Assembly (NCBI RefSeq): GCF_026341035.1
Contig: NZ_JAPEOQ010000002.1
Coordinates: 2,170,001-2,234,000, forward strand
DNA from: Streptomyces sp. NBC_01016
Lineage (GTDB): Bacteria > Actinomycetota > Actinomycetes > Streptomycetales > Streptomycetaceae
Length of the DNA: 64,000 nucleotides
Direction: 5' to 3'
Positions 23,320 to 51,958 of this stretch are shown piece after piece. Position numbers and translations under genes: made by a program. The stretch's first letter is position 1. Every line of letters begins with the position of its first letter. The notes under the pieces are model-generated. The model saw only the letters and a list, made by a program, of their open reading frames with translations, did no database searches and had not been told where the DNA came from.

Positions 23320-24096
23320 TCAGCTGTCCTGACTCTCCATCAGGCGCTCCGAGATGGTCGTCGCCGCCTGCTTGATGGCCTTGACGGCGTGCTCGACGTC
23401 CACGTCCCGCCGTTCCTTCTCGTCCCAGGCCGTGCCCACACTGCCCAGCGCCGTCTTCTGGTCGGTGAGGATCGGTGCCGCGACGCCGTAGACGCCGGGG
23501 TTGAACTCCCCGACGGTCAAGGAGTATCCGTCCTTCTTGATCTTGCCAAGGTTGGCCCGGAAGGTGCTCCAGTCGCTCCCCAGGCCGGCGTTCTCGATCT
23601 CGTCGCGCTGGCGTGGGTAGATGGCCTTCAGGCGGTGATGGGGGAGATGCGCCAGGATGACCTTCGAGATGGCGCCTTGGAACAGTGGGCGCCGCTGTCC
23701 GCGGCTGAACCGGTTCTCCGGGCTGTCCGGGGCGCGGCACTCGCCGACGCAGAGCACCGAATCCCGGTACACGGTGCAGAGGAGGGCCGAGTGTCCGATC
23801 GTGTCCACCAGGTCCTCGAGGACGCCGTGACTGGCGAGTAGCAGCGGGTCCGTCTGGCGCATCTGCAGATCCATCTCGATGATCCGCGGGCCGAGGGTGT
23901 ACAGGCCGCTGGTGACGGCGTTGAGCAGCCCTGCCTCGTGCAGGGTCTTGATGTAGCGATACCCCGTCGACCTCGAGGTCTCAAGAGCCTCGAGGATCTC
24001 GGCTGTCGACCACACCGGCTGTTTCTCGCTGAACAGCTCCAGGATGTGGAGCATCTTGGCCAGGCTCGCGCTGCCCTGAGTCGCTGTCTCTGTCAC
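23320..24096 (-). CDS. IclR-family transcriptional regulator
   Basis: 258 residues from GTG 24096. The winged HTH lies at about 12-75 (SLAKMLHILELFSEKQPVWSTAEILEAL, then SRSTGYRYIKTLHEAGLL). The effector domain has LLCTVYRDSVLCVGECR, FQGAISKVILAHLP, and ends with AVKAIKQAATTISERL. The predicted -10 box (24103-24108) puts transcription start on this GTG, so the mRNA is probably leaderless. Its promoter lies inside a 33-bp palindrome that recurs at three other promoters of the island. It therefore looks like the autoregulated local controller of the catabolic genes to its right. Confidence 0.9.
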   Translation of the reverse strand: MTETATQGSASLAKMLHILELFSEKQPVWSTAEILEALETSRSTGYRYIKTLHEAGLLNAVTSGLYTLGPRIIEMDLQMRQTDPLLLASHGVLEDLVDTIGHSALLCTVYRDSVLCVGECRAPDSPENRFSRGQRRPLFQGAISKVILAHLPHHRLKAIYPRQRDEIENAGLGSDWSTFRANLGKIKKDGYSLTVGEFNPGVYGVAAPILTDQKTALGSVGTAWDEKERRDVDVEHAVKAIKQAATTISERLMESQDS

Positions 24097-24099
24097 CAC

Positions 24100-24132
24100 T
24101 GGACAATATCCCGCGATGTGGGATAGCGTCAA
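24100..24132 (-). promoter_or_regulatory. IclR-type operator/promoter, copy 1 (iclR)
   Basis: On the minus strand this 33-bp imperfect palindrome contains a -35 TTGACG (24127-24132), an 18-bp spacer and a -10 TATTGT (24103-24108), with inner arms ATCCC and GGGAT. It aligns over 33 bp with sites at 30051, 34536 and 45305. The operator fully overlaps the promoter, fitting repression, and places the transcription start at the GTG of the regulator. Confidence 0.75.
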
Positions 24133-24204
24133 ATTTTCGGTCCGGGCCCGCACCGTACAGGGTGCCGGTTCAGGCCCGGGGCGTTCTCGTCATGGACCGC
24201 CACG

Positions 24205-25695
24205 TCACACCCGCGGGACCGCCAGGTACTTGTATTCGAGGAACTCCTCGATGCCTACACGGCCGCCCTCGCGGCCGAGCCCCGAGGCCTTGATGCCGCC
24301 GAAGGGTGCAGCGGGGTTGGACACGATGCCGGTGTTCAGGCCGACCATGCCGACCTCCAGGGCCTCGCTCACCCTGAAGCCGCGGTCCACGTCCTGCGTG
24401 AACAGGTAGCCGGCCAGGCCCCACGGGGTGTCATTGGCCATGCGGATGACCTCCTCTTCCGTGTCGAACGGAATGACGGGAGCCACCGGGCCGAAGATCT
24501 CCGTGGTCAGGAGGTCCGACTGCACCGAAACGTCCGAAAGGACGGTGGGGGAGTAGAAGTAGCCCGCACGGTCCGGCCGGTTGCCGCCGCAGACGACCTT
24601 CGCGCCCTTGTCGACGGCGTCGTCGACGAGTTCCTGCACCTTCCGCAGGGCCTTCTCCTCCACGAGGGGCCCGACTTCGGTGCCCGGCTCCAGGCCGTCG
24701 CTCACTGCCAGCGAGTCCAGTCGGGCTGCGAGGCGGCGGGCGAACTCCTCGGCGACGGGCCGCTGGGCGAAGATCCGGTTTGCGGCGGTGCAGGCCTCGC
24801 CCATGTTGCGCATCTTGGCTGCGAACGCCCCTTCGACGGCGCGGTCGAGGTCTGCGTCCTCGAAGACGATGAGGGGTGCGTTGCCGCCGAGTTCCATCGA
24901 CGAGCGCATGACGTGCTGGGACGCCTGCTCGAGGAGGCGTACTCCAACCTCGGTGGATCCGGTGAAGCTGATCTTGCGGGCGATGCCGCTCGACATCCAC
25001 GGGGAGACCACCGAGGACGCCTTGGTCGTACACACGATGTTGAGGACACCTGCGGGCAGTCCGGCCTCGATCAGGATGTCCGCGAGCGCCAGGGACGACA
25101 GCGGGGTGAGTGCGGCGGGCTTGAACACGATCGTGCAGCCCGCCGCGATGGCCGGCCCGATCTTGCGGGTGCCCATGGCGAGCGGAAAGTTCCACGGCGT
25201 CACGAGCACACAGGGGCCGACGGGTTCGCGCGAGACGAGGATGCGGTTCTTTCCATCGCCAGTCGTCGTTGCGTCGCCGCCGATGCGGACGGCTTCCTCG
25301 GAGAACCAGCGGAAGAACTCGGCGGCGTACGCGACTTCGCCCTTGGCCTCGGCGAGCGGCTTGCCCATCTCCGTCGTCATGATGAGGGCGAGCTGGTCCT
25401 GTCGCGCCATCAGGAGGTCGTATGCGCGGCGCAGGATCTCACCGCGCTCACGGGGGGCCGTCCTGGCCCAGTCGTTCTGTACCCGGCCCGCGGTTTCGAT
25501 CGCACGCAGGGCGTCATCGGGACCGCCATCGGCCACGGTCGCGATGACTTCCTCGGTGGCCGGGTTGACGACGTCGAAGCGGGCGCCGGACGCGGCGTCG
25601 CCCCACTGGCCGTCGATGAAGACGCCGGTGTTGACCTTGGCGATTGCCTCACGTGCCTGCTCGGAGCTGCCGGGGGCGCTGACGTTGCTGGGCAT
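24205..25695 (-). CDS. NAD(P)-dependent aldehyde dehydrogenase (succinate-semialdehyde type)
   Basis: ATG start at 25695; 496 residues. ALDH landmarks: WNFPLAMGTRKIGPAIAAG, FTGSTEVG, the general base in MELGGNAP and the catalytic Cys in MGEACTAANR. EACTAANR together with the C-terminal PFGGIKASGLGREGG resembles the succinate/glutarate semialdehyde dehydrogenase group. It should oxidise a semialdehyde to the dicarboxylate. It is the last gene of a leftward operon: kinase, class II aldolase, racemase-like protein, ALDH. Confidence 0.9.
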   Translation of the reverse strand: MPSNVSAPGSSEQAREAIAKVNTGVFIDGQWGDAASGARFDVVNPATEEVIATVADGGPDDALRAIETAGRVQNDWARTAPRERGEILRRAYDLLMARQDQLALIMTTEMGKPLAEAKGEVAYAAEFFRWFSEEAVRIGGDATTTGDGKNRILVSREPVGPCVLVTPWNFPLAMGTRKIGPAIAAGCTIVFKPAALTPLSSLALADILIEAGLPAGVLNIVCTTKASSVVSPWMSSGIARKISFTGSTEVGVRLLEQASQHVMRSSMELGGNAPLIVFEDADLDRAVEGAFAAKMRNMGEACTAANRIFAQRPVAEEFARRLAARLDSLAVSDGLEPGTEVGPLVEEKALRKVQELVDDAVDKGAKVVCGGNRPDRAGYFYSPTVLSDVSVQSDLLTTEIFGPVAPVIPFDTEEEVIRMANDTPWGLAGYLFTQDVDRGFRVSEALEVGMVGLNTGIVSNPAAPFGGIKASGLGREGGRVGIEEFLEYKYLAVPRV

Positions 25696-25855
25696 GACAG
25701 TCCTTCAGTTCCCTTGGTGTGTCGGTCTCTGGACGGTGGAAGCCGGGGCGCTGGCCGTGGTCGTGCTCGGGCGGCCGTTGTCCCGGACGGACAAGCGGGA
25801 GCCGATACGCCGCAGCACAGGGCCATGTGAGCCCTGTGCTGCGGTACGGACAGGT

Positions 25856-26539
25856 TCAGGCCGTCTGCTTCTCCAGCACACGCACCGCGTCCTCTGCCCC
25901 ACTGCGCGGGCTGCAGAGCACCGGCTTGCCGACTGCCTCGGCGATCACGGGGGCCAGCCGCGCCATGGACGCCTGGGCCAGCACGATCGCGTCGACCTCC
26001 GCGGCGAGCTTTCGGGCCCCGTCGAGCACCATCGCGTCGTGGCGGTCGCGGTCACCGGACATGAGTACGGAGAAGGCTCCCTCGGAAAGAGCCTCCTTCA
26101 CGGTGATGTCGCGACCGGCCGCCTGGGCCTTCTCCTTGACGAGGGCGCAGGTCGGCGGCAGCGTCGTGGGGACCGTCGCCAGGACGCCGATGGTGTCCGC
26201 GGTCTCGACCGCCGACGCGGTCATCGCGTCGTCGATCTTGACGATCGGGACGGAGACCAGGCGTCGGGCCACGTCGATGGCCGGGCCGAGGGAGGAGCAG
26301 GCGGAGAAGATGACATCGGCTCCCGCGTTCTCCGCGGCCTGCGCCAGGTGCACCATGCGCTGGGTGCTGGCGGGCGAGACCTCACCGTCGTGCATGACGG
26401 TCGCGAGCACGTCGCTGTCGACGAAGTGCATGACCTTGGCATTCGGTGCGAGTTCGGCGAGGTAGTCGTTGATGACCGGCTCGACGTTGACGAACACGAG
26501 GCTCGTGTGCAGGACGGCGATCTTGGGGGTGGTGGACAT
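25856..26539 (-). CDS. Asp/Glu/hydantoin racemase-family protein
   Basis: ATG start at 26539 with AAGGAG upstream; 227 residues. Two lobes each carry a candidate catalytic Cys: FSACSSLGPAIDVA (first half) and VLCSPRSG (last 25 residues); the first is the stronger match. The family contains racemases, isomerases and decarboxylases of small acids. Proteins of this type turn up near four-carbon acid-sugar kinases. Here it lies between the class II aldolase and the ALDH. It could racemise or isomerise an intermediate. Substrate is not inferable. Confidence 0.8.
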   Translation of the reverse strand: MSTTPKIAVLHTSLVFVNVEPVINDYLAELAPNAKVMHFVDSDVLATVMHDGEVSPASTQRMVHLAQAAENAGADVIFSACSSLGPAIDVARRLVSVPIVKIDDAMTASAVETADTIGVLATVPTTLPPTCALVKEKAQAAGRDITVKEALSEGAFSVLMSGDRDRHDAMVLDGARKLAAEVDAIVLAQASMARLAPVIAEAVGKPVLCSPRSGAEDAVRVLEKQTA

Positions 26540-26634
26540 GGTGGCTCCTTATGACGGGGTGTGGTGCATCGGCCCGGGTACCGAGAGCGGCACGAGGGCG
26601 CGGTACAGGTGGGTGCTGAGGTCGGGGGTTTCCC

Positions 26635-27483
26635 TCAACGGCGCGGGCTCAGACGGCCGATGACCTCCAGGGCGGCGTCCCGGACCGCATCGCGGCCCGC
26701 CGCCCACACGGACACGACGTCGGAACCGGGCAGCGCCGACGGGAGGGTCGTGTGGACGGCCTCCAGGTAGGCGCGGCGCAGTTCGGCGTTGACGTTGACC
26801 TTGGCGACGCCGCGGGCGAGGGCGCCCTGTAGCTCCTCGACGGGCAGACCGCTGGCGCCGTGCAGGACGAGCGGGACCGGTACGGCCTCGTGGAGGGCGG
26901 CGAGCCGCTCCAGGTCCAGGTGGACGCGGTCCTTGGTGAAGCCGTGGACGTTGCCGACGGCGACGGCGAGTGCGTCCACGCCCGTCGCGGCCACGAATTC
27001 GGCCGCCTGTCGCGGATCGGTCATCGTCGCGGACTGCGCGACGGCGTCGGTGGAGACGTCCTCGTCGCCCGGCAGGGCTCCGAGTTCGGCCTCCACCCAG
27101 GCTCCGTGGTCGCGAGCCCGCCGGGCCGCTTCCTTCGTCAATGCGATGTTCTCAGTGAACGGCAGGTGGGAACCGTCGACCATGACCGAGGTGTAGCCCG
27201 CCTCCAGGCAGGCGGTGATCTCGTCCAGGTCCCGGCTGTGATCGAGGTGCACACCGAGGTGGGCGTCGGAGCGGCCGGCCGCGTCCAGCGCCAGCCGCAT
27301 CAGGGCGTCGCGCCCCGCATGCTTGAAGGGGCTGGAACCCGCCTGGATCAGGACCGGCCGGTCCGCGGTCTCGGCGGCGGCCGTGATGCCCTGGACCGTC
27401 TCCAGGTTGTAGGCGACGAACCCGGGCAGGGCGTGACCGGCGGCCGCGGCCTCCTTCAGGGCATCGGTTCCGTGCAGCAGCAT
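26635..27483 (-). CDS. Class II (zinc) ketose-bisphosphate-type aldolase
   Basis: ATG start at 27483; 282 residues. The zinc-dependent FBA/GatY-type barrel is clear: GFVAYNLETVQGITAAAE, the first zinc His and catalytic Asp in VHLDHSRD, EAELGALPGDED, a second His in VGNVHGF, the third in LVLHGASG, and VNVNAELRRAYLEAV for phosphate contacts. It should split a phosphorylated sugar or acid by retro-aldol cleavage, usually giving DHAP. Its start overlaps the kinase stop (TGATG), so the two are translationally coupled and probably act in sequence: phosphorylation, then cleavage. Confidence 0.9.
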   Translation of the reverse strand: MLLHGTDALKEAAAAGHALPGFVAYNLETVQGITAAAETADRPVLIQAGSSPFKHAGRDALMRLALDAAGRSDAHLGVHLDHSRDLDEITACLEAGYTSVMVDGSHLPFTENIALTKEAARRARDHGAWVEAELGALPGDEDVSTDAVAQSATMTDPRQAAEFVAATGVDALAVAVGNVHGFTKDRVHLDLERLAALHEAVPVPLVLHGASGLPVEELQGALARGVAKVNVNAELRRAYLEAVHTTLPSALPGSDVVSVWAAGRDAVRDAALEVIGRLSPRR

Positions 27484-28931
27484 CAGGTGCTCCTCAGCAG
27501 GTCGAGGGCGTCGGCGAGGGCGTCGGTGCCCCCGACGTTGCCGGCGAAGACGATGTAGGGGATGCCGGCGGCGGGGCCGTCCACCGGTTCCCAGAGCGAG
27601 ACGATGCCGGGCAGCAGGGTGCCCCGGGCCCAGGCGCGGCGGATCTCCAGGCCCTGGGTGGCGGTGTCGCTGGAGGTGATCCCGCCCTTCGCGATGACGA
27701 AGGCGGGCCGCCGGGCGGCGTTGACCTGGCGCACGGCCTCCACGAGTGCGGCGGAGACCCGGCGGGAGATCGACAGACTGTCCTCCGCGTCGGCACCGGT
27801 CACCAGCGTGCGGGAGGTGCTGATCACGGCGTCGGCCGAATCCAGCGCGCCGGCGGCCGCGGCCGCGACCTCGGCGATGTGGGAGTCCCGGCGTTCCTCG
27901 TCGAGCAGGAGGGCCACGTCCAGCTCGTACTCGGCGATTCCGCCGCGCTCGCGCAGCCGGTCCAGCTGCTGTGTGGTGAGCGTGACATGGGACCCGACGA
28001 CGATGAGACCGTGCGGCGCGTCCCCGTGCAGCGGGTGCAGCTGCGCCGGGGTGAGCGGTGCCCGAGCCGCCTGTCCCGAGCGGGCCCTGACGAAGGATGG
28101 GCCGACCCGGTACACCAGTCTTGTGCCGCTCTCCTCCGCCTGGACGAGGGCCAGGGCGAGCACCCGAAGGTCGTCGTCGCACACCGCGTCGACCACGGCC
28201 GGGCGTCCGTCGCGCAGCGAGGACAGCAGCCGCGCCGTGTGCTCCGGTCCTCCACGGCGCAGGTCGTCGAGGGTGACGCGCAGGACCTGGTCCGCGGGCA
28301 CGCGTCCGCCGGTCTTCTCCTCGACCCACTCCGGCAGCTTCGAGCTGCGGTAGCCGAAGGTGGCGTCGCGGGCGAACTCGCTCTCGCCTACGGGGAGCAG
28401 CCCGTCGGCCGTCCGCATCCAGTGGCCGGAGTCGACCGTCAGTCGTCCCGCCTCGATGTAGGCGGGAACCAGTACCACTCCATCCGGAGTACCGGCGCCC
28501 AGATGTGTCAGCGTCTCGGCGAGGACATCGGTCTCCAGCGGGAAGTGGCCGCGCAGTGTCGAGTCACTGCGGCTGGCCAGGACATACGTCGTGCCCTCGG
28601 CCGCCGCCGCCACGTGCAGGGCGCGGACCACCTCGCGGTTGCGGGCGGCGGCGTCCTCGGGGGAGAGGCTGCGGGTGTTGGTGAGGACGAAGAAGGCGGC
28701 GCTGTCCTGGCGCAACGCCCAGCGCAGGTCGTCCACCGTCCAGGACGTCAGGACGGGTACATCGGCGACCGTCTGGGTGCCGGTCGGATCGTCGTCGAGG
28801 ACGATGAGTCGCGAGCCGCCGGAGATGCGGGCGGCCACTTCCGCGGCGCTCACCTCGCGGACCGGCGGGAGCGCGTCAAGCACGTCGGCCTCGGGAACGG
28901 GCCGCGTCTGGGCATGGAGGGGTGGGGGCAT
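27483..28931 (-). CDS. Four-carbon acid sugar kinase family protein (DUF1537/OtnK-like)
   Basis: ATG start at 28931; 482 residues. N-terminal domain: LIVLDDDPTGTQTVADVPVLTSW and RSDSTLRGHFPLE, the substrate-binding half of the family. C-terminal nucleotide-binding domain: VGSHVTLTTQQ, FVIAKGGITSSDTATQGL and VFAGNVGGTDAL. Characterised members phosphorylate threonate, erythronate or 3-oxo-tetronate. The coupled downstream aldolase fits a kinase-aldolase pair. The usual OtnI isomerase and OtnC class II aldolase are absent; a class II FBA-type enzyme takes their place, so the exact substrate may be new. Confidence 0.87.
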   Translation of the reverse strand: MPPPLHAQTRPVPEADVLDALPPVREVSAAEVAARISGGSRLIVLDDDPTGTQTVADVPVLTSWTVDDLRWALRQDSAAFFVLTNTRSLSPEDAAARNREVVRALHVAAAAEGTTYVLASRSDSTLRGHFPLETDVLAETLTHLGAGTPDGVVLVPAYIEAGRLTVDSGHWMRTADGLLPVGESEFARDATFGYRSSKLPEWVEEKTGGRVPADQVLRVTLDDLRRGGPEHTARLLSSLRDGRPAVVDAVCDDDLRVLALALVQAEESGTRLVYRVGPSFVRARSGQAARAPLTPAQLHPLHGDAPHGLIVVGSHVTLTTQQLDRLRERGGIAEYELDVALLLDEERRDSHIAEVAAAAAGALDSADAVISTSRTLVTGADAEDSLSISRRVSAALVEAVRQVNAARRPAFVIAKGGITSSDTATQGLEIRRAWARGTLLPGIVSLWEPVDGPAAGIPYIVFAGNVGGTDALADALDLLRST

Positions 28932-29041
28932 GGTGAATCCCTGACCTGCTGCGAGTGGTTGAGGTGATGTCAGTGGGCGTCACGAATTGACGGAACCCCG
29001 GCGTGGCAGGCGTCGCGGGGTCCGGCCCAGTGGGTGACTCC

Positions 29042-29081
29042 CGCGGGGCAACGCGGAGCCGTGGCTGCGTGTTGCCCCGCG
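29042..29081 (-). terminator. Hairpin terminator after the cupin gene
   Basis: CGCGGGGCAAC (29042-29052) pairs perfectly with GTTGCCCCGCG (29071-29081) across an 18-base loop that can itself form a small AGCC/GGCT stem. It lies just 3' of the cupin stop at 29088 on the minus strand and separates it from the kinase operon. Confidence 0.75.
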
Positions 29082-29087
29082 ATGGGT

Positions 29088-29927
29088 TCAGAACGTGTGC
29101 AGCACCATGCGCAGGAACTCGGCCGGCTCCGTGGCCTCGACCGCCACCGGGCCTTCGTTGGCCAGGAATTCGTACCCGGTCTCCGGCCCGTACTCGCTGC
29201 CCCCGGCGGTCACCCTGCCCTTGGTCTGGAACAGGATCTCGATGGAGTCGAACCGGCCCGCCCGGTAGACCGCGCCGGCGTCGAGGCGTACGAACCCGAT
29301 GCGCAGGTCGCGTTCCGTGAAGCGGCCCAGCCACTTCTCCTCGACGCCCGCGTCGTCGCTCTTCTGCCAGTCGTAGGCCTCCGGGTCCATCGCGATGACA
29401 TCGGTGTAGCGCGGAGCCGCGAACCGGAGCGCGCCGCCCGTGGCGTGCTCGAAGATCGCTTCGGAGCCGTCCTTGCTCTGGGCCACGCCGTTGTCGTCGG
29501 TGTAGTGGTACAGGCCCTTCTTGAACTCGCCGAGCTTGTTCAGTTCGGCGTTCACCGCTTCGCGCCGCGCGACGCTCAGGTAGCCCTGGCCGCTCGCGCC
29601 GCCGCACTGCAGCACCATGGTGCGCAGGCCTTCGGCGCGCTCCTGAGGGCCGTAGTGGATGCTCTCAGGGAAGTATCCGACCCAGCCTTCCTTGAGCACC
29701 TCGGTCTCGGTGTAGGGCAGGTCGCCCTGGATGACGTAGCGGATCTGGTCGAAGTTGTGCCGGTGGCGCGGGGTCCGCCAGCCGCCGCCGCCCGTGAGGC
29801 CCATGTTGAGGTCGAAGTTGTTCGGCGAGTCGTCCTCGCCGAACAGCAGGTGCTTCTGGTCGAGCTTCCCCTCACGCATGGTTCCGACCTGCTCGGTGTC
29901 GGTGTCGGATGCCTTGCCTACACGCAT
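29088..29927 (-). CDS. Cupin-domain protein
   Basis: 279 residues from ATG 29927, chosen over ATG 29951 because AAGGAG lies seven bases upstream. A cupin core is visible: RHRHNFDQIRYVIQGDLPYTETEVL and VGYFPESIHYGPQE, which supply the metal-binding His/Glu set; a C-terminal part repeats a beta-rich pattern (FDSIEILFQTKGRVTAG...YGPETGYEFLANEGP), suggesting a bicupin. It could be a dioxygenase, isomerase or sensor; no specific family was recognised. It diverges from the SDR operon across the shared IclR-type operator at 30051. Confidence 0.78.
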   Translation of the reverse strand: MRVGKASDTDTEQVGTMREGKLDQKHLLFGEDDSPNNFDLNMGLTGGGGWRTPRHRHNFDQIRYVIQGDLPYTETEVLKEGWVGYFPESIHYGPQERAEGLRTMVLQCGGASGQGYLSVARREAVNAELNKLGEFKKGLYHYTDDNGVAQSKDGSEAIFEHATGGALRFAAPRYTDVIAMDPEAYDWQKSDDAGVEEKWLGRFTERDLRIGFVRLDAGAVYRAGRFDSIEILFQTKGRVTAGGSEYGPETGYEFLANEGPVAVEATEPAEFLRMVLHTF

Positions 29928-30225: not shown

Positions 30226-31050
30226 ATGACGACAACACCCTTGACCCACGCCCCACATGACTCCGGAGTGCCGGCGTCGGCGCGGGACTTCAGCGTGGCG
30301 GAGCGGGTGGTGATCGTGACCGGCGCCGCCCAGGGCATCGGCCGGGAGCTGGCGCGCCAGTTCGCCGCGGCCGGAGCCTTCGCCGTGGTGGCCGACCTCG
30401 ACCTCGGCAAGGCGGAGACCGTCGTCAAGGAGATTCACGAGACCGGCGGGACCGGCCTGGCCGTCCAGGTCGACGTGGCTGACGAGTCATCGGTGACAGC
30501 CATGGTCGACACCGTCATGGACCGGTGGGGCCGGATCGACGTACTGATCAACAACGCGTCGGTCTTCGCGACCATCGAGAAGGGCCCGTTCGACGAGATC
30601 CCCCTCGCGCAGTGGGAGCAGGTGCTGAAGGTCAACGTCACCGGGACCTACTTGTGCGTGCGGGCGGTGGCTGCACACATGCGTACGGCCGGCTTCGGCC
30701 GCATCGTCAACGTCTCGTCCGACGCGGTGACCCGAGGCACCGTCAACTACCTGCACTACGTCACGTCCAAGTCGGCGATCATCGGCATGACCAACTCGCT
30801 GGCGCGTGAACTGGGCAGCCACGGGGTCACCGTCAACTGCGTGCGCCCGGGCTCCGTCGCCACGGAAGTCGAGCGCACCGTGAACCCCACCGTCGAGGTC
30901 CGCCAACGCGCGGCGTCACTGCAGTGCATCCCGCGCGGGATGGTGCCCACCGACCTCGTCGGCGTCATGTTCTTCCTGGCCACACCGGCGTCCGCGTTCA
31001 TCACCGGACAGACGATCGCCTGCGACGGCGGCTACACCCACAGCAGCTGA
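30226..31050 (+). CDS. Short-chain dehydrogenase/reductase
   Basis: ATG start at 30226 after AGGAGG; 274 residues. Rossmann motif TGAAQGIGRELARQF, NNAS, catalytic Ser in NVSSDAV and Tyr/Lys in YVTSKSA, C-terminal GQTIACDGGYTHSS. It oxidises or reduces a hydroxyl/keto group with NAD(P). It is the first gene of a rightward operon with ALDH, HpcH/HpaI aldolase and a ketopantoate-reductase-like gene, all reading from the IclR-type promoter at 30051. Confidence 0.9.
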   Translation: MTTTPLTHAPHDSGVPASARDFSVAERVVIVTGAAQGIGRELARQFAAAGAFAVVADLDLGKAETVVKEIHETGGTGLAVQVDVADESSVTAMVDTVMDRWGRIDVLINNASVFATIEKGPFDEIPLAQWEQVLKVNVTGTYLCVRAVAAHMRTAGFGRIVNVSSDAVTRGTVNYLHYVTSKSAIIGMTNSLARELGSHGVTVNCVRPGSVATEVERTVNPTVEVRQRAASLQCIPRGMVPTDLVGVMFFLATPASAFITGQTIACDGGYTHSS

Positions 31051-31128: not shown

Positions 31129-32580
31129 ATGAGGCAGTACCCGCACCTCTACATCGACGGTCAGTGGACCGAACCGATCGAGCCCCGCGAAGTCGAGCTC
31201 ATCGATCCGACCCGCGAGGAGGCCTTCGCCCGAGTGGCTCTGGGCAGCGCCGCGGACGCGGAGCGGGCCGTCGCCGCGGCGCGCCGCGCGTTCGACAGCT
31301 TCTCCGCCACGTCGGTGGACGAGCGGATCGCACTGATCGACCGCGTCGTCGACGCCTACGAGTCGCGCATCGACGAGTTCTCCGAGCTGATCGCCCGCGA
31401 AGTCGGCATTCCCGTGGCCAATCGAGCTCAGGTCACCGGCCCGGCCCAGCACATGCGCGTGGCCCGCGACCTCCTGCGCGAGTACCCCTTCGAGTCGCGG
31501 ATCGGCGGTGCCGTCGTCCGCCGCGAACCGATCGGCGTGTGCGCGCTGATCTCACCGTGGAACTGGCCGGTCCAGACCGGCGTCATCAAGCTGATCTACG
31601 CGCTGGCCGCCGGATGCACGGTCGTGGCCAAGCCCAGCATCAACTCCGCAGCCAGCGGCGCGCTTTTGGCCCAGGTCCTGCACGAGGCGGGCGTACCCGC
31701 GGGCGTCGTCAACCTGGTCAACGGCAGGGGCCGCGACGTGGGCGACACCTTCTCCCGTCACCCGGACGTCGACATGGTCTCCTTCACCGGATCCACCGGG
31801 GCCGGCCGACAGGTCGGGGCCGCCGCCGCGGACACGGTGAAGCGCCTCTGCCTCGAACTCGGCGGCAAGTCCGCCAACATCGTGCTGCCCGACGCAGACC
31901 TGGAGCAGGCCGCGCGCTGGAACATCCAGCGCTGCTTCTTCAACGCCGGCCAGTCCTGCCACGCCCCCAGCCGCATGCTGGTGCACGAGAGTCAGATCGA
32001 GCAGGTGGTGCCCTTCCTGGTCGACGAGGCCCGCCGCTTCCGCCTGGGCGATCCGCTGGAGAGTTCGACGACCATGGGTCCGGTCGTCAGCGCCGGTCAG
32101 TTCAAGTCGATCAGGGACCACATCCAGAGTGGCCTCGACGAGGGCGCCCGGCTCGTCACCGGCGGCCTGGAGCGCCCCGACGGCCTCGACCGCGGGTACT
32201 TCGTGCAGCCCACGGTGTTCACCGGAGTCACCCCGGACATGACGATCGCCCGGGAAGAGGTCTTCGGACCCGTCCTGGCCGTCCTGCCCTACGGCACCGA
32301 GGCCGAGGCCCTGAGCATCGCCAACGACTCGGTCTACGGGCTCGGCGGCTTCGTCTTCGGCGGCGACCGCACGCGCGCCCGCCGCGTGGCGAACGGACTG
32401 CGCGCCGGACGCGTCAGCTACAACGGCGCGGCAACGGACTCGTACACGCCTATGGGCGGCTACAAGCAGTCCGGCATCGGCCGCTCCATGGGCCGCTTCG
32501 GGCTCGAGGAGTATCTCGAGGTCAAGTCCGTGTACGGGTTCGAGGACGAGGCGCAGGAACTGCCGCCGCTCTTCGGCTGA
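31129..32580 (+). CDS. Aldehyde dehydrogenase
   Basis: 483 residues from ATG 31129 after GAGGAGG. It opens with YPHLYIDGQWTEP, then WNWPVQTGVIKLIYALAAG, FTGSTGAGRQ, the Glu in LELGGKSANIV and the Cys in NAGQSCHAPSRML. All landmarks are intact. It oxidises an aldehyde to an acid with NAD(P). It follows an SDR and precedes an HpaI-type aldolase, so it may act on the aldehyde released by retro-aldol cleavage or on the SDR product. Confidence 0.91.
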   Translation: MRQYPHLYIDGQWTEPIEPREVELIDPTREEAFARVALGSAADAERAVAAARRAFDSFSATSVDERIALIDRVVDAYESRIDEFSELIAREVGIPVANRAQVTGPAQHMRVARDLLREYPFESRIGGAVVRREPIGVCALISPWNWPVQTGVIKLIYALAAGCTVVAKPSINSAASGALLAQVLHEAGVPAGVVNLVNGRGRDVGDTFSRHPDVDMVSFTGSTGAGRQVGAAAADTVKRLCLELGGKSANIVLPDADLEQAARWNIQRCFFNAGQSCHAPSRMLVHESQIEQVVPFLVDEARRFRLGDPLESSTTMGPVVSAGQFKSIRDHIQSGLDEGARLVTGGLERPDGLDRGYFVQPTVFTGVTPDMTIAREEVFGPVLAVLPYGTEAEALSIANDSVYGLGGFVFGGDRTRARRVANGLRAGRVSYNGAATDSYTPMGGYKQSGIGRSMGRFGLEEYLEVKSVYGFEDEAQELPPLFG

Positions 32581-32651: not shown

Positions 32652-33443
32652 ATGAGCAACGAAGCCAGCCCTCTTCTGCGCAATCCCGCCAAGGAAAAGC
32701 TGTTGCGTGGCGAGACGGTGTACTCGATGACCGCACGCCTCGTGCGCACCGTCGACATCGCCGCGATCGCCCACTCCGCGGGGTTCGACTCCATCTACAT
32801 CGACATGGAGCACAGTCCTTTCCCCCTGGATGCCGCGAGCCAGATCTGCATGGCCTGCAACCACTTGGGTGTCACCCCGCTCGTCCGCGTCCCGGGCCTG
32901 GACCCGTCCTTCATCGGCCGGGTCATGGACTCCGGGGCCATGGGCATCATCGTGCCCGGGGTGAACTCAGCCGACGAGGTGCGTGCCGCAGTCCGGGCCG
33001 TCAAGCACGCACCTCTGGGCGAGCGCTCCCTCGCGGGTTCCCCGCCCCAACTGCACTTCCGCTCGTACCCCGCCGACCAGACCATCCGCGCGCTCGACGA
33101 GACCTCCATGGTGGTGGCCCAGATCGAGACACGCGCAGGCCTGGACGCGGTGGAGGCGATTGCCGCCGTCGAGGGCGTGGACGTCCTCCTCGTCGGCGCG
33201 AACGACCTCAGTCTCGAGCTGGGCATCCCGGGGCAGATGGACCACCCCGAGCTGCACAAGGCGTACCTGCGCATCATCGAAGCCTGCCGCGTGTACGGAA
33301 AGACCGCTGGCGTCGGCGGCCTCGGCGGACGCCCGGACCTGATCCGCCAGTACCTGGACCTCGGTGCCGGCTATGTCTCCACCGGCAACGACATCTCCTT
33401 CCTCAGCGCTGCCGCGGCCCAAAAGCGCCGGCAGTTCGACTGA
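32652..33443 (+). CDS. HpcH/HpaI-family aldolase
   Basis: ATG start at 32652, with AGGAA upstream; 263 residues. It begins RNPAKEKLLRGETVYSMTARLVRT. The barrel has YIDMEHSPFPLD, MGIIVPGVNSADEV, the metal Glu in VVAQIETRAGLDAV and the metal Asp in VGANDLSLELGIPGQ. The class cleaves 2-keto-3-deoxy or 4-hydroxy-2-oxo acids to pyruvate (or oxaloacetate) and an aldehyde. Position between ALDH and a ketopantoate-reductase-like enzyme fits a sugar-acid or branched keto-acid route. Confidence 0.9.
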   Translation: MSNEASPLLRNPAKEKLLRGETVYSMTARLVRTVDIAAIAHSAGFDSIYIDMEHSPFPLDAASQICMACNHLGVTPLVRVPGLDPSFIGRVMDSGAMGIIVPGVNSADEVRAAVRAVKHAPLGERSLAGSPPQLHFRSYPADQTIRALDETSMVVAQIETRAGLDAVEAIAAVEGVDVLLVGANDLSLELGIPGQMDHPELHKAYLRIIEACRVYGKTAGVGGLGGRPDLIRQYLDLGAGYVSTGNDISFLSAAAAQKRRQFD

Positions 33444-33482: not shown

Positions 33483-34469
33483 ATGAAGATCTGCGTATAC
33501 GGCGCGGGAGCCGTGGGCGGACACATCGCCGGACGACTCGGCGCGGCCGGGGCCGATGTCTCGGTCATCGCCCGTGGCCGACACCTGGCGGCGATCCAAC
33601 AGGACGGGCTGCGGGTGGAGACCCGCGACGGCGAACTTGTCTCGCACCCGGTGGCCACCGACCGGCCCGGCGATCTGGAGCCGCAGGACATCGTCATCGT
33701 CACCGTCAAGGCGCCCGCCCTTCCGGCCATCGCCGAGCACGTCGGTGCGCTGCTGAAGAAGGACGGCCTCGCGCTGTTCGTCATGAACGGCGTGCCCTGG
33801 TGGTACTTCCACGCACACGGCGGGCCCCTGGACGGCACCCGCCTTCAGCGCCTCGACCCCGAGCGGGCGCTGTGGGACCACGTCGGCCCCGAGCGGGCCG
33901 TGGGCGCTGTGGCCTACACGGCGTGCAGCGTGCCCGCACCGGGAGTGATCCGGGCCGAGAACGCACGCAACCGCCTGCTCGTCGGACGCCCCGACGGCGG
34001 ATCCGACTCCAGGCTCGACGCGCTCGCGTCGCTGCTGACCCCCACCGGCCTGGAAACCTCCGTCACGCCGAAGATCCGCGACGCGATCTGGGCCAAGCTG
34101 ACCATGAACCTGATCGGAGGCTCGCTGGCCGTCCTCAGCGCCTCACCCATGAAGGACGTGCTCGACAAGCCCGCCGTCGCGGGCACCGCCAAGGCCATGG
34201 CGGCCGAGGCCGCCGCCGTCGCCCGCGCCCTGGGGTGCGAGCCGGGAGACCCGGAGGAGGGGCTGGCCAAGCTGGCGAAGTCCGGCCACCTCCAGAGCAT
34301 CGCGCAGGACCTGCTGGCCGGACGGCCCATGGAGATCGACGCCATGTTCCGGGTCCCCCTCGACCTGGCGGAACGGGCGCAGGTACCGACACCCAACCTC
34401 GACCTGGTGATCGACCTGGCCACCCAGCGTGCCCGCGCCGCAGGCCTGTATCACGACACCAACAGCTGA
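33483..34469 (+). CDS. Ketopantoate reductase-like (PanE/ApbA family)
   Basis: 328 residues from ATG 33483, with the dinucleotide motif MKICVYGAGAVGGHIAGRLGA, IVTVKAPALPAIAEHV, and the C-terminal KLTMNLIGGSLAVLSASPM. The family reduces 2-dehydropantoate or related 2-keto acids with NADPH. A pantothenate role is unlikely because no other pantothenate gene is near. In this operon it more likely reduces or oxidises a 2-keto/2-hydroxy acid made by the HpaI-type aldolase. This is inference. Confidence 0.85.
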   Translation: MKICVYGAGAVGGHIAGRLGAAGADVSVIARGRHLAAIQQDGLRVETRDGELVSHPVATDRPGDLEPQDIVIVTVKAPALPAIAEHVGALLKKDGLALFVMNGVPWWYFHAHGGPLDGTRLQRLDPERALWDHVGPERAVGAVAYTACSVPAPGVIRAENARNRLLVGRPDGGSDSRLDALASLLTPTGLETSVTPKIRDAIWAKLTMNLIGGSLAVLSASPMKDVLDKPAVAGTAKAMAAEAAAVARALGCEPGDPEEGLAKLAKSGHLQSIAQDLLAGRPMEIDAMFRVPLDLAERAQVPTPNLDLVIDLATQRARAAGLYHDTNS

Positions 34470-34870: not shown

Positions 34871-36295
34871 ATGGATACGCGCATCAATGCGGGCCGCCGA
34901 CTCGACAGTCTTCCGATAGGGAAGTTCCACAGGCGCCTGGCGCTGCTGGTCGGCCTGGGCCTGTTCTGCGACTCCTTCGACAACACACTCTCGGCCGGTG
35001 TGCTGGCATCGATGCTGGACTCCGGCTTCTCGACGCTCGGCCTCAACTCGCTCTTCCTGTCGGTCACGTTCGCCGGCCTCGCGATCGGAGCGGCCTTCGC
35101 GGGCTGGCTCGGAGACCGGATCGGACGTGCCTTCGCCTTCCAGTTCAGCCTGGCGCTCTTCGGAATCCTCGCGCTGTGCGCGGCGCTGTCGCCCTCCATG
35201 GAGGTGCTCATCGTTCTGCGGGGCCTGATGAGCATCGGCCTCGGTGCCGAGTACGTCATCTGCTACGGAATGATCACCGAGTTCATTCCGCCGGGCCGCC
35301 GCGGGCGCTACCTGGGCCTGCTCGGCATTTTCGGCGGAGTCGGTGTCTCCATGTCGTCGATCCTCGGCTGGGTGGTCATTCCCGCGCTGACCTGGCGCGG
35401 CATGTTCGTCATCGGTGGCCTGTTCGCACTGGGCGCCTGGTGGCTGCGCCGAGGGCTGCCGGAGTCCCCGCAATGGCTGGAGTCGCGCGGCCGGCACGAG
35501 GAAGCCGAGGCCGTGATCCGGCGGATCGAAAGGGAGTCCGGCATCCCGAGCCGGGAGACCGCCCCGACTCCGGTCACGCACGGCGCGGTTGGCTCGGTGG
35601 AGGAGAAGGCCGAGTGGGTGCCGATCACGGTGCTGTTCTCGCGGCCTGTCATCCGGCGCACCCTGATGGCTCTGATCCTCACCGTCACCTGCCTGTTCGG
35701 CTCCTACGTCGTCACCGGCTGGATGCCCACGTTCTTCGTGGAGCAGGGGATGACCGTGTCGAAGTCCCTGGGATTCAACGCGGCCATCATGTCCGGCTAC
35801 GTGGCGGGCCCGCTGGTGTGCATGTTCATCGTGGACCGCCTCGGTCGGCGCACCAGCATCATGCTGTTCGGAGTGCTCTCGGCGGTCTTCGCCGGCCTCT
35901 ACCCGTTCATGACGGCTCCTGCGCTGGTCATCGCCGTCGGCTTCGTCCTGGTTGCCACGGTGGCGTCGTTCCTGACACTGGGCCTCGGCACGACCCCCGA
36001 GTTCTTCCCGACCGCCTTCCGTTTCCGCGGCGGCGGCTTCTCCCAGACCGTCGGCCGCATCGGCCTGATCTTCTCCCCCTTCGTCGTCCTGTGGCTGTTC
36101 AACAGCTCCGGGGTCCTCGGGGTGATCCTGGCCGTCTGCGGCATGTACGTCGTCGTGACCGTGCTCAACGGCGTGGCCGGTGTGGACACGTCCCGTGACG
36201 CGCTGGAGCAGATCGCCCCCGGCGGTGATGACACCGATGATGTGTCGCCGGCCGTCATTCCCGCGGCGCCCCAGACCACGCCGCCCACCTCCTGA
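34871..36295 (+). CDS. MFS transporter, probably an organic-acid importer
   Basis: 474 residues from ATG 34871, with GGGAGG upstream. Twelve membrane segments, the signature GWLGDRIGRAFAFQ between segments 2 and 3, and LGAEYVICYGMITEFIPPGRRGRYLG in the first half resemble the sugar/aromatic-acid symporter group. It is the first gene of an operon with a zinc alcohol dehydrogenase, an ALDH, a LysR regulator and a hydrolase, under the IclR-type operator at 34536. It probably imports the substrate oxidised by the next two enzymes. Confidence 0.87.
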   Translation: MDTRINAGRRLDSLPIGKFHRRLALLVGLGLFCDSFDNTLSAGVLASMLDSGFSTLGLNSLFLSVTFAGLAIGAAFAGWLGDRIGRAFAFQFSLALFGILALCAALSPSMEVLIVLRGLMSIGLGAEYVICYGMITEFIPPGRRGRYLGLLGIFGGVGVSMSSILGWVVIPALTWRGMFVIGGLFALGAWWLRRGLPESPQWLESRGRHEEAEAVIRRIERESGIPSRETAPTPVTHGAVGSVEEKAEWVPITVLFSRPVIRRTLMALILTVTCLFGSYVVTGWMPTFFVEQGMTVSKSLGFNAAIMSGYVAGPLVCMFIVDRLGRRTSIMLFGVLSAVFAGLYPFMTAPALVIAVGFVLVATVASFLTLGLGTTPEFFPTAFRFRGGGFSQTVGRIGLIFSPFVVLWLFNSSGVLGVILAVCGMYVVVTVLNGVAGVDTSRDALEQIAPGGDDTDDVSPAVIPAAPQTTPPTS

Positions 36296-45803: not shown

Positions 45804-45972
45804 CTGTCCCACCTGCTGCGCCCCAAGGGCCATCGCATCCATCGATAGGCGCTGCCTCCAAGCCGGGAAGCGAACCGGTCTTGGACACACTCGCGACGTC
45901 AGCCGTTCAATCACCTGTAACACGACCTGGCTGAAACGCCGGGCTACTGGTTCGACTGGACGGAGCCATCTC

Positions 45973-47055
45973 GTGACCACTCTCCGCACCTTCCGCATCG
46001 CGGCGATTCCCGCGGACGGCATCGGCAAGGAGGTCGTGGCCGCCGGACGCCAGGTGCTCGATGCGCTCGCCGCGGACAGCGCCGGAGCGTTTGCCTTCGA
46101 CTGGCAGGAGTTCGACTGGGGCTGCGAGTACTACGCCCGTACGGGCAAGATGATGGCCGACGACGGCCTCGACCAGCTCAAGGACTTCGACGCCATCTAC
46201 TTCGGCGCGGTCGGCTGGCCTAGCGTCCCCGACGACATCAGCCTGTGGGGCCTGCGCCTGAAGATCTGCCAGAACTTCGACCAGTGGGCCAACGTCCGCC
46301 CGGTGCACTTCCTGCCCGGTGTGGTCAGCCCGCTGCGCAAGGCCGACGACACCGAACTCGACTGGGTCGTCGTCCGCGAGAACAGCGAGGGCGAGTACGC
46401 GGGTCTCGGCGGCCGCAACCTCTCCGGGCGCGGTCCCGGCGGTGAAGTGGCCGTCCAGTCCTCGCTGTTCACCGAGGTGGGCTGCGAGCGCATCATCCGC
46501 TTCGCCTTCGACCTGGCCCGCACTCGCAGCCGCCGCAAGGTCTCCTCGGTGACCAAGTCCAATGCCCAGCAGTACGGGATGGTGCTGTGGGACGACGTGT
46601 TCAAGCGGGTGGCCGCCGAGTACCCGGACGTGGAGACGGAGAGTGTGCTGGTCGATGCCATGTCGGCGAAGTTCGTGCTCAAGCCCGAGGACCTGTCGGT
46701 CGTCGTCGCCTCGAACCTCAACGCCGACATCCTCTCCGACCTCGGCAGCGCCCTTGCCGGCAGTCTCGGCCTCGCGGCCAGTGCCAACCTCAATCCCGAG
46801 CGGCGTTTCCCGAGCATGTTCGAGCCGGTGCACGGCTCGGCCCCCGACATCGCGGGGCAGGGCCTGGCCAACCCGATCGGCGCGGTGGGCAGTGCGGCGT
46901 TGATGCTGGAGCACTTCGGCCTGCCCGACCAGGCGGCCCGCCTGAACAAGGCGATCGAGACCGTCACGGGCGCTGGAACCCTCACCCGCGACGTCGGCGG
47001 CACCGCCACCACCGACGAAGTCACCAAAAACCTGATCGACGCCCTCAGCCCCTAA
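45973..47055 (+). CDS. Tartrate/D-malate-type dehydrogenase (IMDH family)
   Basis: GTG start at 45973; 360 residues. It opens FRIAAIPADGIGKEVVAAG, and has DFDAIYFGAVGWPSVPDDISLWGLRL, QWANVRPVHFLPGV, KSNAQQYGMVLWDD and the metal-binding VDAMSAKFVLKPEDLSVVVASNLNADILSD. Phrases such as GAVGWP and SLWGLRL mark the tartrate dehydrogenase/D-malate dehydrogenase group rather than 3-isopropylmalate dehydrogenase. It carries out NAD-dependent oxidative decarboxylation of a 2-hydroxy acid. It is followed by an MHS-type symporter, consistent with a hydroxydicarboxylate pathway. Confidence 0.9.
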   Translation: MTTLRTFRIAAIPADGIGKEVVAAGRQVLDALAADSAGAFAFDWQEFDWGCEYYARTGKMMADDGLDQLKDFDAIYFGAVGWPSVPDDISLWGLRLKICQNFDQWANVRPVHFLPGVVSPLRKADDTELDWVVVRENSEGEYAGLGGRNLSGRGPGGEVAVQSSLFTEVGCERIIRFAFDLARTRSRRKVSSVTKSNAQQYGMVLWDDVFKRVAAEYPDVETESVLVDAMSAKFVLKPEDLSVVVASNLNADILSDLGSALAGSLGLAASANLNPERRFPSMFEPVHGSAPDIAGQGLANPIGAVGSAALMLEHFGLPDQAARLNKAIETVTGAGTLTRDVGGTATTDEVTKNLIDALSP

Positions 47056-47099
47056 ACCACCCCCAACTCCCGGCACGGGACCCCGACTAGGAGCAGCCG

Positions 47100-48506
47100 A
47101 TGACGTCCGCCTCCGCACCACCAGAGCCGCACAGCACCACCGTCGGCAAGAAGCCCCTGAAGTCGATGGAAGTCCGCACGGTCGCCAGCGGCACCCTCGG
47201 TTCCGCCCTGGAGTACTTCGACTTCGCTACCTACGGGATCCTGTCCGCGACGGTCTTCCCGCAGCTGTTCTTCCACCAGCTGGGGTCGACCGGCGGCCTG
47301 CTCGCCTCGTTCGCCACCTTCGGAGTGGGGGTCGCGGCACGACCGCTCGGAGCGGTTCTCTTCGGGCACCTCGGTGACCGGATCGGCCGCAAGCCGATCC
47401 TCTTCGTCACCCTCGCGCTGATGGGCGCCTCGTCCATCCTGATCGGCTTCCTGCCGACAGGCAGGGGAGTCGGCATCGCCGTCCTTCTCGTCGCGCTCCG
47501 CTTCGTGCAGGGGGTGTCGCTCGGGGGCGAGGCGACCGGCGGCCAGATCCTGTCGGTGGAGAGCTGCGACAGAAGCCGCCGCGGCCTCATGGGCAGTTTC
47601 GTGGTGATCGGGTCTCCGCTGAGCCAGGTGCTGGGCAACGTCGTCATCGCTGTGCTGAGCGCGTCATTGACCGAGGAACAGTTCCTGGCCTGGGGGTGGC
47701 GGGTCCCGTTCATCGGGAGCATCGTGATCGTCGCGACCGCGGTGTTCATCCGTCTCAAGCTGGAAGAGACGCCGGCTTTCGCGGACAATAAGGACGCTGA
47801 GATCGCGACGCCCGCCGAGGGCAGCTCCCGCGGCGCCGGCATCCGCGTGCTCAAGACGCATCCACGCCAGGTGATCGGACTGATGCTCGCCTGGGCAGGT
47901 ACGACGCTGAGCTTCTATCTGATCGCGGTTTACGGGCTCAGCTATCTGCCCTCCGCGACCGGCATGTCTGCCCAGACGGCGACGGTCATCATGGTGGTCG
48001 CGAACGGCCTCTCCGCCGGCTTCGCGATCGCCGGAGGGTACGTATGTGACCGCATCGGGCGGCGCCGCGTCTGGCACATCGGCCTCGGCGGATGCTTCGT
48101 CGGCATCGTTCTTTTCTTCACCGCCGCGACCCCCAACCCGGTCGTCACCGGAGCCATCGTCGCCCTCGTGATGTGCTCCATCCAGTTCCTCAGCGGCGCC
48201 CAACCCGCCCTGTTCGCCGAGCAGTTCCCCACGCAGGTCCGATTCACCGGCATGGCGCTCGCCTACACCGGAGCCAACGTGTTGTTCGCGGCCCCGGCAC
48301 CGTTCGTCGCCGCCGGCCTGACGGCCCTCGGCGGCAGCAAGCTCGTCATGACCGTGAACCTTCTCGTGCTGGTGGTGTCCGCCGTCGCCGTCTCGACGTG
48401 CCGCGAGGGCGGACACCGCGACCTGGGTTCGGACACGGAAGCTGTGCGACCGTCCGGCCGGCGCGAGACCTCACCCGCAATGACCGCCAGCAACACCCCG
48501 CAGTAG
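47100..48506 (+). CDS. MFS transporter, metabolite:H+ symporter (MHS) family
   Basis: 468 residues from ATG 47100. GTLGSALEYFDFATYGIL, LFGHLGDRIGRKPILFV, GVSLGGEATGGQILSVE and PALFAEQFPTQVRFTGMALAY are diagnostic of the MHS group, which imports citrate, 2-oxoglutarate, proline betaine and similar anions. The preceding tartrate/malate-type dehydrogenase, 44 bp upstream, suggests a small hydroxydicarboxylate substrate. Confidence 0.88.
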   Translation: MTSASAPPEPHSTTVGKKPLKSMEVRTVASGTLGSALEYFDFATYGILSATVFPQLFFHQLGSTGGLLASFATFGVGVAARPLGAVLFGHLGDRIGRKPILFVTLALMGASSILIGFLPTGRGVGIAVLLVALRFVQGVSLGGEATGGQILSVESCDRSRRGLMGSFVVIGSPLSQVLGNVVIAVLSASLTEEQFLAWGWRVPFIGSIVIVATAVFIRLKLEETPAFADNKDAEIATPAEGSSRGAGIRVLKTHPRQVIGLMLAWAGTTLSFYLIAVYGLSYLPSATGMSAQTATVIMVVANGLSAGFAIAGGYVCDRIGRRRVWHIGLGGCFVGIVLFFTAATPNPVVTGAIVALVMCSIQFLSGAQPALFAEQFPTQVRFTGMALAYTGANVLFAAPAPFVAAGLTALGGSKLVMTVNLLVLVVSAVAVSTCREGGHRDLGSDTEAVRPSGRRETSPAMTASNTPQ

Positions 48507-48531
48507 TGAACCGCCAGTAAGGACACGCAAC

Positions 48532-50013: not shown

Positions 50014-50085
50014 CCTCACCGCCGTGCCCCTGCCCACGACCGGCAGGCCGCCCCCTCTCACACATCTACTGGATGGAGCAGAAGC

Positions 50086-50838: not shown

Positions 50839-50845
50839 GAACCTG

Positions 50846-50872
50846 GCCTGCCGCCGCTCGGCGGCGGCAGGC
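50846..50872 (+). terminator. GC-rich hairpin terminator
   Basis: GCCTGCCGCCG (50846-50856) and CGGCGGCAGGC (50862-50872) form a perfect 11-bp stem with a 5-base loop, eight bases after the SDR stop. Confidence 0.75.
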
Positions 50873-51093
50873 TCCCGCCGCCGTACACACCCGGCGGCAA
50901 GGCGACAACCAGATGCCGCGTCACCGACACATCTACGTGTGACGTCATTGGGGCCCCGAAGTCGGCGTACGACTCCGCCCCGCCGCAGCACACCCTCACC
51001 CCACCCAGGACCGCGGCACCCAGATGGGCCGGCCTGTTGTCCTGCCGTGTGGCCCAAGTTCGCTTTCCCACACCTAAGTTGAGGAGTACACCC

Positions 51094-51873: not shown

Positions 51874-51958
51874 TCCGCCAATCGGCCCCCTCACGGTGTG
51901 TCGGCCCGGGTGCGGCCGGGTCGGCACACCCCCGTACACATCGAACCGGAGGAGACAC

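Follow-up and report, generated by a model that had tools for sequence, protein, structure and literature searches.

The closest described counterparts of a gene cluster in Streptomyces sp. NBC_01016 that couples a DUF1537 acid-sugar kinase to a class II aldolase of the fructose-bisphosphate aldolase (FBA) type are pathways of tetronate breakdown. We analyzed the cluster within a 64,000-nt stretch (the window, whose positions serve as coordinates throughout) of the 10.02-Mb, two-contig host genome. In one such pathway the D-threonate kinase DtnK is reportedly paired with PdxA2, as described by Zhang et al. in 2016. A four-step route through LtnD, OtnI, OtnK, and OtnC, with dihydroxyacetone phosphate (DHAP) as expected product, is represented by ygbJKLM of Escherichia coli and by genes on pRL11 of Rhizobium johnstonii. 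A three-step bacterial route for L-threonate, in which LtnD, 2-OtnK, and 2-OtnC lead to DHAP via 2-oxo-L-threonate, is described in the available part of PMC12540250, citing Guo et al. 2024; there the domain of 2-OtnC is F_bP_aldolase, that of 3-OtnC Aldolase_II. The same text reports that the plant protein LTD (AT1G18270) fuses LtnD, DUF1537, and F_bP_aldolase domains and that its loss raises L-threonate; recombinant LTD was not obtainable, so that its activities were not shown singly. The wheat FBA study PMC5470051 likewise notes a plant protein in which a DUF1537 domain is combined with an F_bP_aldolase domain. As L-threonate derives from plant vitamin C breakdown, again according to the available part of PMC12540250, routes that consume it matter to soil and root bacteria.

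The window resembles the three-step route, attributed to Arthrobacter sp. ZBG10 in that part of PMC12540250, in encoding a DUF1537 kinase together with an F_bP_aldolase-domain enzyme and in having no OtnI, and close homologues of its pair adjoin genes for an LtnD-like protein and GntP elsewhere (loci L018, L022, and L055). This likeness to 2-OtnK and 2-OtnC is one of description and domain. Our reading, to which we assign a probability of about 0.6 from sequence comparison, is that the pair would be the finishing cassette of tetronate catabolism, converting an oxo-tetronate through its 4-phosphate to DHAP and CO2. The kinase, presumably of the 2-OtnK kind, would place a phosphate on C4 of an oxo-tetronate (most likely 2-oxo-tetronate), and the zinc aldolase, in the role of 2-OtnC, would then free DHAP and CO2, in the manner of a decarboxylase and not of a fructose-bisphosphate aldolase. 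The pairing of the kinase with an FBA-type aldolase is of a known kind; what is new is the partners, namely, the lack of LtnD, a single-cysteine racemase-fold subfamily, and a set of genes for a cupin, a short-chain dehydrogenase/reductase (SDR), an aldehyde dehydrogenase (ALDH), an HpcH-type aldolase, and an ApbA-like protein. The core genes are as follows.

27483..28931, minus strand: DUF1537 acid-sugar kinase with SBD_N and NBD_C domains, 482 aa (PF07005, 181 bits; PF17042, 122 bits)
26635..27483, minus strand: class II FBA-type aldolase, 282 aa (PF01116, 271 bits)
25856..26539, minus strand: Asp/Glu-racemase-like protein, 227 aa (PF01177, 76 bits)
24205..25695, minus strand: ALDH resembling succinate-semialdehyde dehydrogenase (SSADH), 496 aa (PF00171, 541 bits)

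The preliminary description of this DNA had named these four genes within 24205-29927, with kinase and aldolase sharing a base, and in this it was accurate: all four lie on the minus strand, and the stop codon of the kinase gene overlaps the start codon of the aldolase gene by base 27483 (TGATG). It had also held that the pair matches neither DtnK-PdxA2 nor OtnK-OtnC-OtnI, which is borne out by the profile searches. The kinase scores 55.4 bits against the D-threonate kinase model (cut-off, 450), whose name points to one DtnK branch, and 43.5 bits against the 3-oxo-tetronate kinase (OtnK) model (cut-off, 350). No LtnD-, OtnI-, OtnC-, or PdxA-type profile match was found in the window at E 1e-6, with DenD not searched separately. 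The window shares DUF1537 domains with DtnK-PdxA2 but has no PdxA match, and it differs from the four-step route in its kinase, in having a PF01116 protein instead of an Aldolase_II-type OtnC, and in having neither OtnI nor LtnD. The further suggestion that an FBA-type aldolase beside such a kinase may mean a new substrate did not hold up, given the described route with an F_bP_aldolase-domain 2-OtnC (PMC12540250, available part). That orthologous clusters might already have an assigned substrate had been named as a ground for rejecting the idea, and for L-threonate this is largely so, although the described route does not cover the racemase-like protein, the upstream genes, or the lack of an LtnD.

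The relatives of the kinase carry much of the argument. In a scan of named genomes, neighbours were counted for the best 80 kinase loci, all from Actinomycetota except one (L099, Chloroflexota). By tblastn, on the same strand and within 5 kb, an LtnD-like gene was present in 61, GntP in 36, FBA in 21, a racemase-like gene in 5, OtnI in 3, and PdxA in 1, with an OtnC-type gene in 0 of the 80. These counts are lower bounds because for 14 of the 80 loci the available sequence stops less than 5 kb from the kinase. A profile-based count of FBA neighbours (31/80) was dropped in favor of the tblastn figure on account of a spurious reading-frame match in L025, a locus with kinase, LtnD-like, and GntP genes but no aldolase by tblastn. 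FBA genes on the opposite strand were not counted as partners, since those of L048, L063, L071, and L100 group with housekeeping FBA. These are Microbacteriaceae genes of housekeeping type with a DPR motif, within 5 kb of the kinase (L048 8027-9055, L063 7019-8050, L071 8018-9043, and L100 8059-9159). Automatic clustering of neighbouring open reading frames was set aside, as most fell into one giant group.

In a tree of 96 kinases, built by a quick method and with many weak forks and long outgroup branches, the window kinase lies inside a large clade with Arthrobacter kinases that adjoin LtnD-like and FBA genes, and the OtnK proteins of E. coli, Rhizobium, and the host genome lie apart from it. 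Identity is 89% to the kinases of L022 and L016, 49% to Arthrobacter (L011), and 51% to Pseudarthrobacter (L065); against the OtnK proteins of the host genome and Rhizobium it is 24 to 30%, over part of the length only. Among the matches listed, the closest relatives in named genomes are mostly from Streptomyces. Within the window's family the kinase was matched at E 1e-20 in 5 of 249 genomes, the host included, and phmmer found no DUF1537 relative of it in the PDB at E 1e-5. One of these five genomes, G210, holds a kinase homologue in pieces (L019 9239-12029), the first of which is separated from the later ones by another reading frame of 601 aa. The host genome has a third DUF1537 kinase (L021 9195-10475; G000:C2, near 3878724), which scores below the curated cut-off of every model that it matches.

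Close homologues of the pair occur with three different sets of putative supplier genes. The first, in L018, L022, and L055, has the order kinase, aldolase, LtnD-like gene, and GntP, with kinases 75 to 89% and aldolases 75 to 88% identical to those of the window (for the pair, 88 to 89% in L022 and 75 to 80% in L018 and L055). The LtnD-like protein of L018 has the L-threonate dehydrogenase model as its best match, at 260.8 bits and under the cut-off of 350. The second set combines racemase-like and OtnI genes (L016, L023, L024, and L027). In L016 the kinase is 89% and the aldolase 92% identical to the window's, the OtnI protein exceeds its equivalog cut-off (385.8 versus 325), and the OtnI proteins of the other three loci are 91 to 92% identical to it. 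The third, in the window and in L017, from another genome of the window's family, joins a racemase-like gene and a cupin gene to an operon of SDR, ALDH, HpcH, and ApbA genes. As the pair is nearly constant and its suppliers vary, we infer one common intermediate, an oxo-tetronate.

The active site of the aldolase is consistent with this. It conserves the equivalents of E. coli FbaA D109, H110, E182, H226, H264, S267, and N286, including the catalytic Asp and three metal-binding His residues of a class II enzyme. At the positions of N35, S61, and R331, the contacts of the second phosphate in FbaA, it has Val, Gly, and Val, so no second phosphate is expected in its substrate. The housekeeping FBA of the host genome (L143) retains the Asn, the Ser, and the DPR motif that holds Arg331 and is also present in E. 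coli FbaA. Among the aldolases encoded next to the kinase on its own strand, those aligned through the C-terminal region do not have the DPR motif, and E. coli YdjI likewise has neither this motif nor the S61 residue. From these residues we expect a substrate with a single phosphate whose aldehyde half is small or missing.

Around the core, the cluster continues in both directions with the following genes.

23320..24153, minus strand: IclR-family regulator (PF01614, PF09339), just outside the interval first described
29088..29927 (alternative ATG at 29951), minus strand: cupin-like protein (weak Cupin_7 match, 23.2 bits; cut-off, 27), inside the interval first described but not named there
30226..31050, plus strand: SDR oxidoreductase, divergent from the cupin gene (PF13561)
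31129..32580, plus strand: aldehyde dehydrogenase ALDH2 (PF00171)
32652..33443, plus strand: HpcH/HpaI-type aldolase, a reading frame named from homologues annotated aldolase/citrate lyase family
33483..34469, plus strand: ketopantoate-reductase-family (ApbA/PanE) protein (PF02558, PF08546)
34871..36295, plus strand: major facilitator superfamily (MFS) transporter, a candidate uptake system (PF07690)

The minus strand is thus read in the order cupin, kinase, aldolase, racemase-like, ALDH, and IclR, and the divergent plus strand in the order SDR, ALDH2, HpcH-type aldolase, ApbA-like, and MFS. Locus L017 keeps the order cupin, kinase, aldolase, racemase, and IclR at 84 to 90% protein identity, which argues that the association exceeds chance, and the layout is the same when SDR, ALDH2, HpcH, and ApbA are included, at 82 to 90%. 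In detail, IclR is 85.5% identical and in the same place, SDR and ALDH2 are each 88% identical, and ApbA is 82% identical. The IclR protein is the probable regulator of the cluster. No MFS homologue was found in the L017 stretch; homologues of about 55% identity occur in two Paraburkholderia loci, L129 and L139. With LtnD missing, the oxo-tetronate would probably be formed by the ApbA-like protein, a candidate 2-hydroxyacid dehydrogenase, or by the SDR, from a tetronate that the divergent SDR/ALDH/HpcH operon may supply.

The cupin gene links the window to canonical tetronate genes. Within the class to which the window belongs it is rare, occurring in 3 of 394 genomes (the host among them), and it has 29 matching records in the plasmid collection, 22 of them from Rhizobium; its homologues, mostly 49 to 55% identical, come from Rhizobium, Ensifer, Sinorhizobium, Cupriavidus, and Paraburkholderia. 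Eleven of the 29 plasmid loci were examined (L127 to L132 and L136 to L140). HpcH and ALDH2 homologues lie beside the cupin gene in 10 of these, with HpcH at 43 to 56% identity, and in the examined Rhizobium, Ensifer, and Sinorhizobium loci SDR and ALDH2 reach 61 to 68% and 58 to 66%, respectively. The HpcH-type protein has no NCBIfam match at E 1e-40, and no ApbA homologue was found in the 11 loci at the tblastn limits used. In all five Rhizobium loci examined (L128, L130, L136, L138, and L140), a cupin gene and an HpcH-SDR-ALDH set are followed by homologues of LtnD, OtnK, OtnC, and OtnI, the OtnK match being partial in L130 and L138. In the loci scored, curated cut-offs are passed by OtnK (545.2/350) and OtnC (290.1/250) of L128 and by LtnD of L130 (415.2/350); the L128 OtnI protein scores 248.7, below its cut-off of 325, yet OtnI is its best model. 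The public annotation of R. johnstonii 3841 names a 3-oxo-tetronate kinase and an L-threonate dehydrogenase, and an OtnK homologue is also present in Paraburkholderia L139. None of the 11 plasmid loci has a window-type kinase or aldolase. As the cupin/SDR/ALDH/HpcH set stands beside otn homologues in Rhizobium, the window pair occupies the same slot as the canonical tetronate enzymes. That FBA-type and OtnC-type endings share a genomic slot supports extending the three-step assignment to clusters with an aldolase annotated as fructose-bisphosphate aldolase, such as those in L012 and L013. For the pRL11 cluster, the available part of a Rhizobium transcriptomics study (PMC3333776) states no substrate; the tartrate dehydrogenase it concerns is another one, RL0995. 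Structure prediction for the cupin from a single sequence gave a pLDDT of 30.4 and was not used.

The racemase-like protein belongs among the new partners. Its model (six rows) has a pLDDT of 89.8, and the best structural match, 5hra (Z 21.3; root mean square deviation, 2.4; 209 residues aligned), places it in the Asp/Glu-racemase fold. It resembles Asp/Glu and hydantoin racemases (PF01177) in fold (Z about 20 to 21) and in the first catalytic Cys, Cys81, which all 34 rows share, that of the window among them. It differs from them in being the partner of a sugar-acid kinase and in the second catalytic Cys, which is Gln in all 32 rows covering the position, with the register taken from alignment to the hydantoin racemase 2eq5 (the Cys of GCTG). 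The protein thus falls outside the two-base, two-cysteine racemases. The subfamily carries the signature CSS...LAQASM. DUF1537 kinases have relatives of the racemase-like protein as neighbours in Rhodococcus (L012), Deinococcus (L013), and the archaeon Haladaptatus (L135), and in both L129 and L139 a racemase-like gene comes immediately after the cupin gene. The protein probably isomerizes or epimerizes the oxo-acid next to the carboxylate, and our guess is an isomerase or epimerase that would move a proton next to the carboxylate of an oxo-tetronate. From titles and abstract openings in the open-licence literature searched, we recognized no account of a DUF1537 kinase and an FBA-type aldolase accompanied by a cupin or an Asp/Glu racemase.

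Our more tentative extension is that the known finishing cassette is fed by two further pieces: the single-cysteine racemase-fold subfamily, acting on oxo-tetronates, and the cupin/SDR/ALDH/HpcH(/ApbA) cassette, making a tetronate from a larger acid, with OtnK/OtnC/OtnI and DUF1537/FBA endings interchangeable behind it. We regard this as rather less likely than not. In such a scheme HpcH could, for example, release a tetrose and pyruvate, and ALDH could oxidize the tetrose. The cassette is found in the window's family, in Rhizobium relatives, and in part in Burkholderiales. The comparison singles out this racemase-fold subfamily and the conserved upstream cassette; we found a function assigned to neither, and both are testable with few proteins.

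Several observations weigh against reading the pair as a finishing tetronate cassette. The window has no LtnD or OtnI, which leaves the supply of oxo-tetronate unexplained. The same genome holds a canonical otnK-otnC-ltnD set (L020; G000:C2, near 3865779), with OtnK (621.6 bits) and LtnD (457.6 bits) over their cut-offs and OtnC at 231.9, just below its cut-off of 250; the window cluster would therefore overlap with it in part, unless a different isomer or inducer is involved. Fifty-nine of the 80 best kinase loci, in the tblastn count limited by the early sequence ends noted above, have no same-strand FBA gene. Among the cupin loci, 5 of the 11 (Cupriavidus L127, Paraburkholderia L129, Ensifer L131, Sinorhizobium L132, and Variovorax L137) have neither OtnK, OtnC, nor the window pair in their stretch. 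The aldolase itself differs from FbaA at E181 (Asp), D288 (Asn), and T289 (Ala), and its score against E. coli KbaY (180 bits) exceeds that against any Arthrobacter-type row (143 at most). In the aldolase tree, from which the L025 and truncated L023 rows had been removed beforehand, the fork holding the window type, the Arthrobacter type, YdjI, a Deinococcus row, and a paralogue from the host genome is unsplit. This tree does not unite the window and Arthrobacter aldolases in a clade, what they share for certain is the domain, and recruitment of the FBA-type enzyme could have happened repeatedly. Finally, OtnI beside the pair in L016-type loci would suit 3-oxo- rather than 2-oxo-tetronate as the kinase substrate.

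This last point leads to the alternative that survives best, although we consider it unlikely: four-step chemistry, in which the kinase would act on 3-oxo-tetronate, the FBA-type protein would take over from OtnC as a plain beta-keto-acid decarboxylase, and either the cupin or the racemase-fold protein would do the work of OtnI where OtnI is missing. The L016 OtnI protein over its equivalog cut-off beside a near-identical pair, its homologues in L023, L024, and L027, and the same partners beside OtnK/OtnC/OtnI homologues in Rhizobium all speak for it. However, L016, L023, L024, and L027 carry both a racemase-like gene and an OtnI gene, so neither simply replaces the other, which weakens the racemase-like gene as a plain substitute for OtnI, and L018, L022, and L055 have neither gene. 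Moreover, in the route as reported in PMC12540250, the FBA-type enzyme follows 2-OtnK.

A second alternative concerns the length of the substrate and the SSADH-like enzyme. The kinase would form the phosphate of a C5 or C6 keto acid, and the aldolase would cleave this to DHAP and an oxo acid (for example, glyoxylate or tartronate semialdehyde), which the SSADH-like enzyme would oxidize. PF01116 enzymes offer precedents. IolJ is the PF01116 aldolase of inositol breakdown, and kinases of this kind of system are YdjH (with YdjI) and IolC. YdjI of E. coli is annotated as an octuluronate-1-phosphate aldolase, and SqiA is the PF01116 aldolase of sulfoquinovose breakdown, with SqiK as partner kinase, according to the available part of PMC9594981. 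The window aldolase resembles SqiA, YdjI, and IolJ as a putative DHAP-forming, zinc-type enzyme with its metal ligands kept (compared for YdjI), but their partner kinases are of the PfkA/PfkB type instead of DUF1537. LtnD-like and OtnI-like proteins do match the tartronate-semialdehyde reductase and hydroxypyruvate isomerase models below cut-off. Yet the L016 OtnI protein passes the OtnI cut-off and fails that for hydroxypyruvate isomerase (313.7 versus 353.45), and the L018 dehydrogenase reaches 158.1 bits for tartronate-semialdehyde reductase, less than for L-threonate dehydrogenase. The SSADH-like gene itself is missing from between the racemase and IclR genes in L017, the closest cluster, and its homologues (61 to 65%) lie several kb off in L016, L023, L024, and L027, which marks it as a loose neighbour. 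Of the four genes originally named, it has the weakest tie to the cluster. Its product scores 580.3 bits against TIGR01780, below the SSADH cut-off of 646.35. Taken together, we hold cleavage of a longer keto acid to be distinctly improbable. The idea of a wholly new pathway for a substrate unrelated to tetronates, raised in the preliminary description, draws on the distance of the kinase from curated DUF1537 equivalogs, its lack of a PDB relative at the threshold above, and its unusual partners, but it is very improbable indeed, given that the gene content agrees with the three-step route and that associations with LtnD-like, OtnI, and canonical otn genes recur.

Related kinases also occur on plasmids of Priestia (L014) and Ligilactobacillus (L015), accompanied by a gluconate:H+ symporter and a GarR-type reductase (that of L014 scores above the model's cut-off); no PF01116-type aldolase is annotated in either stretch. 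The window has a second catabolic stretch at 45883-53380, with a tartrate-dehydrogenase-type protein (521.7 bits; cut-off, 470.4), an MFS transporter, an ALDH, two SDRs, and a protein with homologues annotated MmgE/PrpD. Homologues of its ALDH and first SDR lie by the cupin cassette in Ensifer L131 and Sinorhizobium L132 (58 to 68%) and in L017 (68 to 72%), and those of its PrpD protein do so in Rhizobium and Paraburkholderia. Tartrate-dehydrogenase-type genes likewise lie near racemase-like or kinase-aldolase genes in L016 (1301-2404), L023 (from 7676), and L134 (9570-10664).

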